IMG/VR virus record: IMGVR_UViG_3300009551_000128
Span: 1-21,159 of that record
Source of the DNA: a virus
Direction: 5' to 3' (one strand)
DNA: 21,159 nt
Shown: in pieces, positions 379 to 7,274 of the stretch
Position numbering within the stretch: position 1 is the stretch's first letter
Layout: each line of letters begins with the position of its first letter
Position numbers and translations under genes: made by a program
The notes under the pieces: generated by a model
What the model was told of the DNA's origin: nothing
The model's input: the letters and a program-made list of their open reading frames with translations, nothing else
Databases searched by the model: none

Positions 379-641
379 ATGGCCTCCCCCTTAAAATCCA
401 GGGAGAAAAACCAGCCTGCCTTGATAGTGCCGGTAATGGCGCCATTGGTTACGTCTGCTGAAAACTTGGCTGTATGGCCGTCTAGGATGATTGAGCCGGT
501 GTAATGATCCCCGGTAACGACGCCAGCGATTGAGCCGTCTCCGAACTCGGTACTTTCGATCTTCCCGGAGAAGCCGCCCTTGCCGTCCGTTTCCAGATCG
601 ACAAGGGCATGGTGTGGGCCGGCTAGAACGCTGAATCTCAC
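375..641 (-). CDS. Beta-rich protein of unknown function in the lysis cassette (88 aa, GTG start)
   Basis: I place the start at the GTG at 641, which overlaps the TGA of the upstream holin as GTGA. The frame is open further upstream to 704, but that would overlap the holin gene by 67 bases and adds only a charged, unstructured-looking extension. The 88-residue product alternates short hydrophobic strands with Gly/Asp turns (for example GSIAGVVTGDHYTGSIIL and AITGTIKAGWFFSLDFKG), the pattern of a small up-and-down beta barrel or sandwich. No signal peptide, membrane segment or catalytic motif is visible. Its stop overlaps the next gene as ATGA. I do not recognise the family; position alone suggests a lysis accessory or a superinfection-related factor. 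Confidence 0.65.
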   Translation of the reverse strand: MRFSVLAGPHHALVDLETDGKGGFSGKIESTEFGDGSIAGVVTGDHYTGSIILDGHTAKFSADVTNGAITGTIKAGWFFSLDFKGEAI

Positions 642-838
642 GACCGGAGGTCTTTTGCCGCTTGCAGTTTCTCGGCCGCGTTTTTCTTCTGGATCAGCGA
701 CCAAGCAACCGTGCAGAGAACGGCTGCTGCGCCAGCAACGGCGGTAATTTGGTCTGGGCTAAATACAGCCCCGCCGCCGAATGTGATAATGAGTGCCCGG
801 ATAATGGAACCGAGCATGGCTTTGGTGGTGTCATCCAT
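638..838 (-). CDS. Holin, Pam3-gp28-like two-TM type (66 aa)
   Basis: This 66-aa protein has two predicted membrane segments (about residues 9-27 and 31-48) separated by a short FSPDQ turn, and a charged C-terminal tail (QKKNAAEKLQAAKDLRS). The layout 'short N-terminus, TM, turn, GAAAVLCTVAWSLIQKK' matches the Pam3-gp28 family of putative phage holins. Holins make inner-membrane lesions that let a signal-less endolysin reach the peptidoglycan, and the endolysin here (2107-2538) has no export signal. The ATG lies 1 nt after the stop of the lipoprotein gene, and the stop overlaps the following GTG start. The Shine-Dalgarno is weak (GAAGTAAG), so translation may be coupled to the upstream gene. 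Family assignment is by pattern memory, not by search. Confidence 0.75.
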   Translation of the reverse strand: MDDTTKAMLGSIIRALIITFGGGAVFSPDQITAVAGAAAVLCTVAWSLIQKKNAAEKLQAAKDLRS

Positions 839-839
839 C

Positions 840-1241
840 TTACTTCACCATCAGCAAGCGAGCCTGGGCCTTATCGGCCTGCAGCTGATGAACGAAATCG
901 GAAAACTTCTGAACCGCCGTAACCACATTCTGCACATCGGTGGAGAAGGTGGCGGACGAAACCTGCACGCTGCCATCCGGGCCAAGAACGCTCTCGGCAA
1001 CCTTGATCGCGGCCAACACGGCCTGCTCCAAGGTCTGGGCCTGCTCCATGTTCGCGGCAGTGCAGAACGGTGCGGAAGTATTGGCGCTGCACACGCTCTC
1101 GTAGAGATTGAGCGCGACGGAGAAGGCAGTTTCCGCAAGCTGGAGGTCGTTCTTCGGATTGCTGAAATACTCGCCCATACCGGCGCAACCACCCAACAAC
1201 AGGGCGCACGTCAGCGAGCCCGCAATGAGAGCTTTTTTCAT
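840..1241 (-). CDS. Phage-encoded small lipoprotein (133 aa), possible outer spanin
   Basis: The N-terminus is a bacterial lipoprotein signal peptide: MKK, a hydrophobic stretch, then LLGGC with the lipid-modified Cys at residue 19. The mature part (about 114 aa) is predicted helical, with two further cysteines close together (in ESVCSANTSAPFC) and a C-terminal amphipathic helix (TAVQKFSDFVHQLQADK). The start has an AGAGGA Shine-Dalgarno about 8 nt upstream, 17 nt after the stop of the peptidase gene. Known: many phages of Gram-negative hosts carry an outer-membrane lipoprotein (o-spanin) beside the endolysin. This one fits by location and lipobox. However, it is longer than a typical o-spanin, is not proline-rich, and no inner-membrane partner is seen. 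It could instead exclude superinfecting phage. Confidence 0.75.
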   Translation of the reverse strand: MKKALIAGSLTCALLLGGCAGMGEYFSNPKNDLQLAETAFSVALNLYESVCSANTSAPFCTAANMEQAQTLEQAVLAAIKVAESVLGPDGSVQVSSATFSTDVQNVVTAVQKFSDFVHQLQADKAQARLLMVK

Positions 1242-1258: not shown

Positions 1259-2110
1259 TTAGTTGATTGGAGTCAGTGAAACTTGGCGCACGTCGGCCAA
1301 GAGAGCACCGAGGTCGAAACCATTAGGAGCCCTGCCAGCCTTGTCGAACCATGCGGAGGTGATGGGAACCCAAAGCTCGTCGCAGTATTTGGCGACCCAC
1401 GCGGCCGTCATGTTCTGCTCTTTGCCCCAGGTGATGGCAGTAAGGGTCTTGGAGTTGAAGAAGCTGCATAAGCCACGCTTCTCGCGGTACGCGCTGGTGA
1501 CCATGCAATGACCGCCCCACTCGCCGGGCGCCCCGTTCGTGTCAGCCCATAGCCCATCCTTCTGGGCCGAGAGCGGGAGACTGACGCCCATGTAGAGCGA
1601 GCCGGAAAGCCAGTGTGCGAGCTTTACATGCTCCCAGTTGCGCGGATCGACAGCGGCAAAGGCCAGGAGTTCGCAGCCCGCGATAGGCTCCTTGCGCCAA
1701 GCTTTGAGAATGTCTATTTCAATGCCGCCCTGGTCGGTTTCAGGACGGCCGGGAATATACCCACAAAGTTTCTGGTACAGGTTGACCGCGTCGCTATCTG
1801 CAAACCGAGCCAGAAAGCCATTGTTTGAGAGCCACAGCTGGATCGCGTGCAAGATGCCGGCGCACGTGCAATCCCCCAGGATATCGTTAGCGAGCATTCC
1901 CCATGACTTCACCTTATCGCCGTAATCAATAGACGCGGGAGGGTCTGGAAGGTCCGTGATGTAATTGGCAAATCGGAGCGTGCGCGGGTCTTTCGGAGAC
2001 GGTGCGGCGCGGCCCAGCTTCAGGTTCGACGGATTGAACGGAATAATCGCTTCGTTCGGATCGCGCGGCCATAGCCATTTGAAGCGGACATCAATGCCGA
2101 AAATGTTCAT
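1259..2110 (-). CDS. Papain-like cysteine peptidase of the lysis region (283 aa)
   Basis: The 283-aa protein has the layout of a C1/papain-like fold. A candidate nucleophile Cys81 sits in ILGDCTCAG, followed by a helix (ILHAIQLWL). His201 lies in EWGGHCMVTSAY, followed by a beta-rich end with TWG (residues 227-229) and NMT. Small-residue and turn positions around both sites are conserved-looking. No signal peptide or membrane segment is visible. Its ATG overlaps the endolysin stop as ATGA, so the two are likely co-translated. Related proteins occur in phages and bacteria, mostly annotated as hypothetical or as peptidase-like. It could cut cell-envelope peptides, process a virion or lysis protein, or act on a host target. 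The fold is likely; activity and substrate are inference. Confidence 0.68.
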   Translation of the reverse strand: MNIFGIDVRFKWLWPRDPNEAIIPFNPSNLKLGRAAPSPKDPRTLRFANYITDLPDPPASIDYGDKVKSWGMLANDILGDCTCAGILHAIQLWLSNNGFLARFADSDAVNLYQKLCGYIPGRPETDQGGIEIDILKAWRKEPIAGCELLAFAAVDPRNWEHVKLAHWLSGSLYMGVSLPLSAQKDGLWADTNGAPGEWGGHCMVTSAYREKRGLCSFFNSKTLTAITWGKEQNMTAAWVAKYCDELWVPITSAWFDKAGRAPNGFDLGALLADVRQVSLTPIN

Positions 2111-2538
2111 GCACCCTCTAGGTATGTGGCAGCTTCGATAAGGCGGCGGTGCAGGAGGCCCTTGACCTCTTTGCCGTTGTCGTGATCCCAGGCGATGAAT
2201 TGGCGCACGACATCGGACCAGCGCCCGTCATTTACAGCCGTGATGAGCATTGAGCCTTTGAGCGCACCCGCTCCCACGTTGAAAGCGAGACTGATAACCG
2301 CGGCCATCTGACGGTCTGAGACGGTGGCTTTGATGAGGCCGAATAGCCCCATTGCCGCGTTCTGTAGGTCGGTCGTTAGGGCCGCTTCAGCCTGTTCCTG
2401 GGTCCAGACAAGACCCTCATGGGCGCCAGCCGCGTGGCCGTATCCGATAGTCCAGACGCCGCCCCCGTCCTTGTAGGCCGTGAGTTTGCAGCCCTCGAAT
2501 TGGCGCACCAATCCGGCCGCCAGGTCGATTGCGGACAT
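2107..2538 (-). CDS. Endolysin, GH24 (T4-type) lysozyme, 143 aa
   Basis: A glycoside hydrolase family 24 lysozyme, which cleaves the MurNAc-GlcNAc bond of peptidoglycan. The catalytic triad is visible with T4 spacing: Glu15 in RQFEGCKL, Asp24 in AYKDGGG, and Thr30 in WTIGYGH. The C-terminal half carries the usual AAVISLAFNVG helix and the closing LLHRRLIEA segment. I start at the ATG at 2538, preceded 4 nt upstream by GAGGG. The frame is open upstream to 2589, but that extension has no good ribosome site. There is no signal peptide or SAR-type membrane anchor, so release should depend on a holin, and two holin candidates lie downstream. Its length is at the short end of the usual GH24 endolysin range. 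Confidence 0.93.
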   Translation of the reverse strand: MSAIDLAAGLVRQFEGCKLTAYKDGGGVWTIGYGHAAGAHEGLVWTQEQAEAALTTDLQNAAMGLFGLIKATVSDRQMAAVISLAFNVGAGALKGSMLITAVNDGRWSDVVRQFIAWDHDNGKEVKGLLHRRLIEAATYLEGA

Positions 2539-6395: not shown

Positions 6396-7274
6396 CTAAC
6401 CGCCAGGCATGTAGGACGAAGCAACAGCCTGCCCGACTTTCCCGAAGACAGACAGAATGCCGCCGAGGCCAGGATTGCTGCTGGTTGTGGTCGTGCCGTT
6501 GGTATTGACGGTCTGCTGCACTGGGATCATGCCCAAAGCACTATTGAGCAAGTTCTGCTGCTGTATCGTCAGCTGCTTGCCCTGTAGCCAATTATTGTAG
6601 GCGTTGCTGATTTCCGTCTGGCTCTGGGCCTGCTGCGCATCGCCAACTGCACCCAAGATGCCACCCTGCTGAGCAGCTACGCCAAGAGCATTGTTATTGA
6701 GGTTAGCGGTCGTGGTCGCAGCATTGAGACCAAGGTTCTTGGCTGCCAACGAGGCGTTCTGTGCCTGCGTGTAATTCGCCGCGTTCAGGTTGGCGATATT
6801 GCTCTGGTTATTGCGGTCATATGCTTCATTGGTCAACGCATTAGCCACGCCAGAGCGGGAACCTCCAAACGCACCGCCCGCGGTGTTCTGGGCATTCATT
6901 TGGGTTTGTGCGATTTGGCGTGCACGCTCGTTGTCGTTGATCGAAGCGTCGATGACGTCTTTCTGGAATGGGTTCATGTAGGTTTGGAGATCGGCAGCAG
7001 ACAGCGGGTTGCTGTTCAAGATGCCTTGAGCGCCAGCGGTAGCGGCATTCGCCGTCTGGCCATATAGTGGGTTAGTGGCGACGCTACTGAGAATGCCCTG
7101 AGCCTGAAGCTGGGTAGGCGTAAAGCCGGCAGTCAACTGTCCGGTATATGGCGTGCCCAAACTGGCCGCGTTTTGCTGGGCCGTCGCATAGTTATTCTTT
7201 AGAAGCGCCATCGACTCAGGATTGATGGTGTTCGTCTGCGTCTGTTGGGTAGTTTGTTTTGATCCGCCGCTCAA
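6396..7274 (-). CDS. Podovirus internal virion protein, Asn/Gln/Ala-rich (292 aa, TTG start)
   Basis: A 292-aa low-complexity helical protein. It contains the recognisable block DLQTYMNPFQKDVIDASIND, followed by QTQMNAQNTAGGAFGGSRSG and ALTNEAYDRN. I recall this signature in many short-tailed phages, as a virion or DNA-transfer protein placed immediately before the large ejection proteins. The N-terminus (SGGSKQTTQQTQTNT) is polar and the C-terminus is Gly-rich with one weakly hydrophobic segment (GGILSVFGKVGQAVASS). It starts with TTG at 7274, overlapping the upstream TGA as TTGA, and has an AAGGA Shine-Dalgarno 9 nt upstream (7284-7288), which supports this start. No catalytic residues are evident. 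Confidence 0.72.
   Translation of the reverse strand: MSGGSKQTTQQTQTNTINPESMALLKNNYATAQQNAASLGTPYTGQLTAGFTPTQLQAQGILSSVATNPLYGQTANAATAGAQGILNSNPLSAADLQTYMNPFQKDVIDASINDNERARQIAQTQMNAQNTAGGAFGGSRSGVANALTNEAYDRNNQSNIANLNAANYTQAQNASLAAKNLGLNAATTTANLNNNALGVAAQQGGILGAVGDAQQAQSQTEISNAYNNWLQGKQLTIQQQNLLNSALGMIPVQQTVNTNGTTTTSSNPGLGGILSVFGKVGQAVASSYMPGG

Follow-up and report, generated by a model that had tools for sequence, protein, structure and literature searches.

A divergent papain-like protein family encoded beside phage cell wall hydrolase genes, probably an overlooked helper in bacterial lysis

Introduction

Phage lysis cassettes are usually read as a combination of holin, endolysin and spanin, and endolysins with papain-like CHAP and NlpC/P60 domains are well known. 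In the virus record analysed here (21,159 bases, the whole of which is called the window), a first-pass annotation had recognized a putative papain-like peptidase that is encoded by a gene of its own, directly behind the gene of a lysozyme. This locus raises the question of what such a protein does next to an endolysin and whether the arrangement is restricted to this virus. In the part of the literature that was covered by our survey, which included few subscription journals, no papain-family enzyme is described as a separate gene of a lysis cassette.

Results

On the minus strand of the window, the lysozyme gene is followed by the papain-like gene, a lipoprotein gene and the genes of a 66-aa and a 60-aa protein. 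The features of this region are the following:

2107..2538, minus strand: phage lysozyme (endolysin), first ATG at 2538, frame listed from 2589; Pfam PF00959, 9.3e-36
2107..2109, minus strand: stop codon TGA of the lysozyme gene, inside the ATGA overlap
1259..2110, minus strand: predicted papain-fold Cys-His protein of the phrog_19005 family, 283 aa, ATG start, taken from the ORF list
840..1241, minus strand: 133-aa lipoprotein with the lipobox LLGGC, helical in a low-confidence model
638..838, minus strand: 66-aa protein with two hydrophobic segments, a holin candidate by hydropathy and a sub-cut-off match to PF23987
196..378, minus strand: 60-aa hydrophobic protein, a second holin-like candidate by hydropathy

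It can be seen that the stop codon of the lysozyme gene (2109-2107) and the start codon of the papain-like gene (2110-2108) share bases. The ATGA joining of the two genes, which the first-pass annotation had put forward, was confirmed in the window, and an identical overlap is present in the relative L002. When we compared the papain-like gene of the window with that of L002 (87% protein identity), we obtained a dN of 0.090 and a dS of 1.29, with 101 silent versus 38 replacement codons. These values show that the gene is kept by purifying selection, and the open reading frame is a real gene. The 66-aa protein scored 25.8 bits against PF23987 (Phage_holin_10), just below the Pfam cut-off of 27 bits, and the 60-aa protein (L001:6733-6912) matched neither a Pfam model nor a PHROG. 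A 40-kb IMG/VR contig is identical to the window at 7107 of 7110 overlapping bases in the part compared, and it carries an integrase gene 3.8 kb downstream of the papain-like gene on the opposite strand.

When the papain-like protein was compared with profile libraries, no Pfam model (E up to 1, no Peptidase_C1) and no NCBIfam model was matched. Among the PHROGs there was a single match, phrog_19005 (2.6e-33), to which no function is assigned in that collection. Relatives were collected by profile scans, from which the best 80 of 139 viral relatives and the best 80 of 93 genome relatives were taken. Gene calling relied on the longest frames, which is error-prone in GC-rich loci; 163 gene calls were reduced to 105 at 85% identity, and the alignment used below (A2) comprises 99 proteins. 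It was built without L001 (the window), L003-L005 and, for reasons of length or unclear letters, L028, L031, L094 and L107; P0004 (L002) was restored. Here, we found that all 99 members match phrog_19005. None of them matched Peptidase_C1, CHAP or NlpC/P60 in Pfam at E up to 0.1, and the seven Pfam families that do appear at this threshold occur in one member each. A viral scan with one single relative as query retrieved nothing, and a scan with L064 retrieved only contigs already in the set.

The family is present in phages and in bacterial genomes. A tblastn search of the phage collection (E 0.01) with the window protein matched four phage records, none of them a mycobacteriophage; the corresponding search of the plasmid collection found no relative. 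In one of the four records, the relative bears the annotation 'cysteine protease and beta' and its gene has an overlap with that of an amidase, as seen in MW202816. The genome relatives (best 80 of 93) come from both Gram-negative and Gram-positive genomes, and their sources include isolates of Acetobacteraceae, Streptomyces, Nocardia and Microbacterium as well as metagenome bins of Desulfosporosinus, Acidobacteriota, Elusimicrobiota and Chloroflexota.

AlphaFold2 modeling from the 99 aligned rows yielded a papain fold with a pLDDT of 88.8 and a pTM of 0.85. The model is weakest at residues 1-15 (mostly below 50), and residues 16-30 and the C-terminus also fall below the core. In Foldseek, the best match among solved structures was xylellain (7.0e-9), and procathepsins and papain relatives were also retrieved. 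VIA-align gave a Z-score of 20.6 for xylellain (203 residues, 2.6 A) and of 18.1 for the next row among the 50 matches listed. One of these matches is Clostridium Cwp84 ('surface layer associated protein'), and neither CHAP nor NlpC/P60 is named among them, although a listing of 50 matches excludes no family. The search of the viral structure library yielded, among others, Peptidase_C1 proteins from giant viruses and from uncultured phages; 'Peptidoglycan binding-like' and 'N acetylmuramidase (Fragment)' are among the names of the entries found. Using sequence only, profile A2 retrieved xylellain (1.1e-4) and, more weakly, cathepsin K (about 0.1). Xylellain was reached by sequence from A2 and from the relative L061 only; phmmer and profile searches of the PDB that started from A1 or from L085 alone gave matches at chance level. 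Taken together, the predicted model, the Foldseek search and the Z-score for xylellain bear out the papain-like fold suspected in the first-pass annotation, the nearest folds listed being of the C1 type, and the family is predicted to fold like papain.

To describe the putative active site, we refer to four positions of the window protein:

1886..1888, minus strand: codon of Asn75, six residues ahead of Cys81; Asn in 99/99
1868..1870, minus strand: codon of Cys81, predicted nucleophile and first residue of the core helix 81-96; Cys in 99/99
1508..1510, minus strand: codon of His201, predicted general base; His in 99/99, aligned with the His of the xylellain GGH
1427..1435, minus strand: Ile226-Thr227-Trp228, at the site of the Asn-Ser-Trp of papain and xylellain (profile alignment, vTWG versus NSWG)

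Eight residues (N75, D76, G79, C81, D126, G128, H201 and W228) are invariant in all 99 rows of A2. Of all Cys and His residues in the window protein, only C81 and H201 are invariant; the others vary. The N75-D76-G79 motif formed part of the viral search patterns (59 of 60 viral rows match), and Cys81 and GGH formed part of the patterns for the genome set. Evidence free of such selection is therefore restricted to C81 and H201 of the viral sequences; each is present in 60/60 rows, which were found with patterns containing neither residue. In a wider alignment of 152 sequences, Cys was present in 151/151 and His in 150/150 of the rows with a letter at the site. Conservation in homologues thus agrees with the earlier proposal that these two residues stand in papain-like contexts.

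The third residue of the papain triad behaves differently. When the profile is aligned with xylellain and cathepsin K over the His strand and the W-G pair, position 226 corresponds to their catalytic Asn (NSWG); here, the 99 rows carry Val, Leu or Ile (91), Asp (4), Ala (2), Ser (1) or Cys (1) and in no case Asn. C81 was aligned with the GSC of xylellain, but in a weak stretch (2.0 bits). Since the third catalytic Asn is absent, most members of the family would have a Cys-His dyad at best. A classical C1 peptidase was rejected on these grounds (triad Asn in 0/99 rows, no Pfam model matched). By spacing only, Asn75 may correspond to the oxyanion-hole Gln of papain. An Asp in the position of the triad Asn was seen in L023, L039, L049 and L061, which all belong to one six-row clade, and L061 also shows this Asp when aligned alone.

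To quantify the genomic setting, five families of cell wall hydrolases were searched in 50 of 63 non-redundant viral records; 13 records (ten under 20 kb and three proviruses) were left out by hand. We obtained 26 matches in 26 of the 50 records, one per record, and 23 of them lie within 3 kb of the papain-like gene on the same strand. Random placement predicts 3.0 of 26, and the corresponding probability assumes independent and evenly placed genes, so that kinship of the records makes its value too small. For integrases, which were used as control, 4 of 24 were found within 3 kb on the same strand (two fragmentary G040 integrase rows left out). The nearby matches comprise Lysozyme (5/5), Amidase_2 (6/6), Rv2525c-like proteins (6/7, one below the cut-off), GH25 (4/6) and GH108 (2/2), and the remaining three hydrolases are 32-67 kb off. 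Both matches to the holin family (2/2, one below the cut-off) are also located within 3 kb. Peptidase_M23 gave no match over the cut-off in the 50 records and one weaker match 29 kb away.

The hydrolase partners vary between and within clades; a lysozyme is found next to L055 and a GH108 protein next to its near relative L040. It follows that the association outlasted changes of partner. No match to any of the five families was obtained in 24 of the 50 records, and these include the two records (L054, L082) that represent the Acetobacteraceae clade (22/99 rows) among the 50. The 111 open reading frames neighbouring the gene in these 24 records include Hydrolase_2 (2), CHAP (2) and one each of Amidase_2, Peptidase_M15_4, SLT_3 and Peptidase_C71, and the record search was incomplete, as Amidase_2 was later found in a record scored without one. 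The association in strand and distance makes a lysis function more than a guess from one overlap. It also bears on the earlier statement that peptidases of this fold are unusual in Gram-negative lysis cassettes: the gene is indeed associated with wall hydrolase genes, but the case of the window is not a one-off, and relatives occur outside Gram-negative bacteria as well.

Some relatives in bacterial contigs have other neighbours. In the Pseudomonadota metagenome-bin contigs L087, L091 and L093, the papain-like gene follows another gene with an overlap of 4-7 bases. This upstream gene encodes a class-3 lipase in L091 according to Pfam, and on visual inspection the L087 and L093 products are similar. 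In addition, L087 has an upstream lipoprotein, found by lipobox pattern, and a downstream frame that resembles HrcA when inspected by eye. In L084, a record that is a stretch of a Mycolicibacter genome, the next gene (L084:5794-6771) appears PPE-like by eye and a partial GH25-like match is 1.1 kb off.

In the window, the lipoprotein gene starts 17 bases after the papain-like gene, and in Komagataeibacter phages a lipoprotein gene overlaps it by four bases. When we counted open reading frames with a simple lipobox pattern, 35 were found in the 140.7 kb within 700 bp of the gene and 25 in the 803.8 kb elsewhere in the same loci. This corresponds to a density that is about eightfold higher beside the gene, and such frames occur in 31 of 105 loci. 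The neighbouring lipoproteins form three homologous groups and 13 singletons (including a few doubtful cases), and a single conserved family of lipoprotein partners was rejected for this reason. The window lipoprotein had no match in the phage collection and was found in IMG/VR only in the near-identical contig of the window and in the contig of L002. In the latter (L246), it is 93% identical and hence better conserved than the papain-like enzyme (87%). Its structural model is of low confidence (pLDDT 65). The lipoprotein of the Komagataeibacter phage phiKX1 (L004:8663-9265), whose gene overlaps the papain-like gene, belongs to phrog_28078 (no assigned function) and shows a weak match to Trypco2 (E 0.0074, below the cut-off). 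The enrichment of lipoproteins could mean that they are partners of the papain-like protein, its substrates, or merely the outer-membrane part of Gram-negative lysis cassettes.

Finally, a simple hydropathy test detected an export-like N-terminal segment or a membrane segment in 0/99 members. The missing export signal had already been pointed out in the first-pass annotation, together with a need for the holin, and our data support both points: lacking an export-like segment, the protein would depend on the holin.

Discussion

The data describe a family of divergent papain-like proteins whose lysis setting has statistical support, and its members are probably overlooked helpers in bacterial lysis. 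As a reading of the window protein, we consider it fairly likely that it is an accessory lysis enzyme that is released together with the endolysin and cuts peptide bonds in the envelope. The parts of this reading have different sources. An enzymatic activity is suggested by the invariant Cys and His, the neighbouring genes point to the envelope as site of action, and release through the holin and a contribution to lysis are proposed in addition. Ordinary endolysins leave the cell through the holin lesion. By analogy, the papain-like protein may be co-produced with the endolysin via the ATGA overlap, would remain cytoplasmic until the inner membrane is opened by the holin and might then act in the envelope alongside the endolysin. 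At the chemical level, Cys81 would attack a peptide or amide carbonyl with His201 as base and no third residue, as expected for a dyad. The first-pass annotation had proposed peptidoglycan cross-links, outer-membrane proteins or the neighbouring lipoprotein as possible targets. For an accessory lysis enzyme, a substrate in peptidoglycan (peptide stems or cross-links) is slightly favoured here over one among the envelope proteins: most bacteria carrying relatives have peptidoglycan in common, and papain-family domains are proposed within mycobacteriophage endolysins (PMC3314691, PMC6116114). Several observations stand against such an accessory lysis enzyme. The catalytic Asn is absent; three of the 26 hydrolase matches are 32-67 kb away, 24 of 50 records match none of the five families, and the Acetobacteraceae clade (22/99 rows) gains no support from the association. 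The nearest folds listed are proteases (xylellain, cathepsins) and not peptidoglycan enzymes; the gene is located near amidases and CHAP proteins as well as near glycosidases, without clear complementarity; and in some bacterial contigs the relatives lie by a class-3 lipase and no wall hydrolase.

The protease character of the closest folds leads to a related explanation, in which the protein would attack wall-anchored, outer-membrane or S-layer proteins at the lysis stage and aid envelope break-up without cutting peptidoglycan. C1-type peptidases are the closest folds, Cwp84 is among the listed matches and lipobox frames are denser beside the gene (35 in 140.7 kb versus 25 in 803.8 kb), and we regard this explanation as possible, if on the unlikely side. 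Relatives are found, however, in bacteria with quite different envelopes, so that a single protein target is improbable, and with three groups and 13 singletons the lipoproteins may be ordinary members of the cassettes. The lipoprotein might alternatively control the protease or guard against it as an inhibitor or immunity protein. The distance of 17 bases in the window, the four-base overlap in Komagataeibacter phages and the weak, sub-cut-off Trypco2 match of one Komagataeibacter lipoprotein (E 0.0074) are consistent with such a pairing, but the neighbouring lipoproteins are not one family, the gene is also present in Gram-positive bacteria and the model of the window lipoprotein is of low confidence (pLDDT 65). 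We hold an inhibitor or immunity function of the lipoprotein to be very improbable.

Two further scenarios remove the protein from the envelope or deprive it of catalysis. Its site of action might be the cytoplasm, or its target some other protein of the phage or the host, and its gene would be located in the lysis region by chance. This would agree with the lack of an export-like segment, with some relatives in bacterial contigs where no lysis cassette is evident and with the 24 of 50 viral records that matched none of the five hydrolase families. The association with these families in strand and distance is hard to explain otherwise, and no PADLOC model was matched; we consider action in the cytoplasm quite improbable. 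For the same reason (no PADLOC match), a defence gene was rejected. The protein might also be a catalytically dead binding or regulatory protein with a papain fold, as the catalytic Asn is lost in 95 of 99 rows when Asp is counted as kept. On the other hand, Cys81 and His201 are fixed in 99/99 rows while other Cys and His residues vary, and enzyme families that combine a complete papain core with only a dyad are known from PMC10318531. A loss of catalysis appears highly improbable to us. Returning to an accessory enzyme released at lysis, a more general version of it would be that the family is a widespread class of lysis proteins apart from holin, endolysin and spanin, namely holin-released dyad proteases that cut wall or outer-membrane tether proteins and are paired with whichever wall hydrolase is present. 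We put this version forward as a speculation that is rather unlikely to be correct in full.

Compared with known systems, the family shares with xylellain and other short bacterial C1A peptidases the predicted fold (Z 20.6), the positions of Cys and His, the D-x-G loop and the W-G pair after the His strand. It differs from them by the lack of a Pfam match and of the triad Asn, by an Asn in place of the Gln ahead of the Cys (judged by spacing) and by its location near phage wall hydrolase genes. Xylellain-type C1A genes were acquired by Myo- and Siphoviridae, as reported in PMC10380794. CHAP and NlpC/P60 endolysin domains belong to the same papain-like superfamily, and some of these enzymes work at phage lysis according to PMC10318531, but the window family has no profile match to them and its nearest listed folds are of the C1 type. 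In mycobacteriophages, the N4 and N5 domains of LysA are predicted cysteine peptidases for lysis and N5 was placed in the papain family, as reported in PMC3314691 and PMC6116114; these are domains within an endolysin, whereas the window protein is separate. Another known case is the SGNH esterase gp40 of Xanthomonas phage PBR31, which PMC10975493 places in a lysis block beside holin, endolysin and spanin. Like gp40, the window protein is predicted to be an extra envelope hydrolase of a lysis block, but gp40 has another fold and, in the same source, a signal peptide. To phrog_19005, which all 99 A2 members match, our analysis adds a predicted fold, a putative active site and a lysis context, so that this group gains a testable function.

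A conserved extra enzyme near lysozymes, amidases, GH25, GH108 and Rv2525c-type proteins suggests that cutting one bond of the polymer may often be insufficient. The recurrence across hydrolase types is worth testing for specialists, and the papain-like enzyme is a candidate for combination with endolysins.

Some members carry additional sequence or have a second protein of possible interest nearby. A SPOR wall-binding tail on L064 and L100, plausible by eye, was not confirmed by Pfam and was rejected, and SPOR in L028 remained below the cut-off (E 0.065). In L064 and L117, a second protein encoded nearby (L064:3257-3748 and L117:5342-5866) shows weak, sub-cut-off matches to the permuted papain-like family C92 (E 0.0016 and 0.053, respectively). 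The C-termini of L021, L022, L029, L030, L034, L036, L063 and L080 consist of a Pro/Thr-rich linker followed by a short tail, as if surface-binding.
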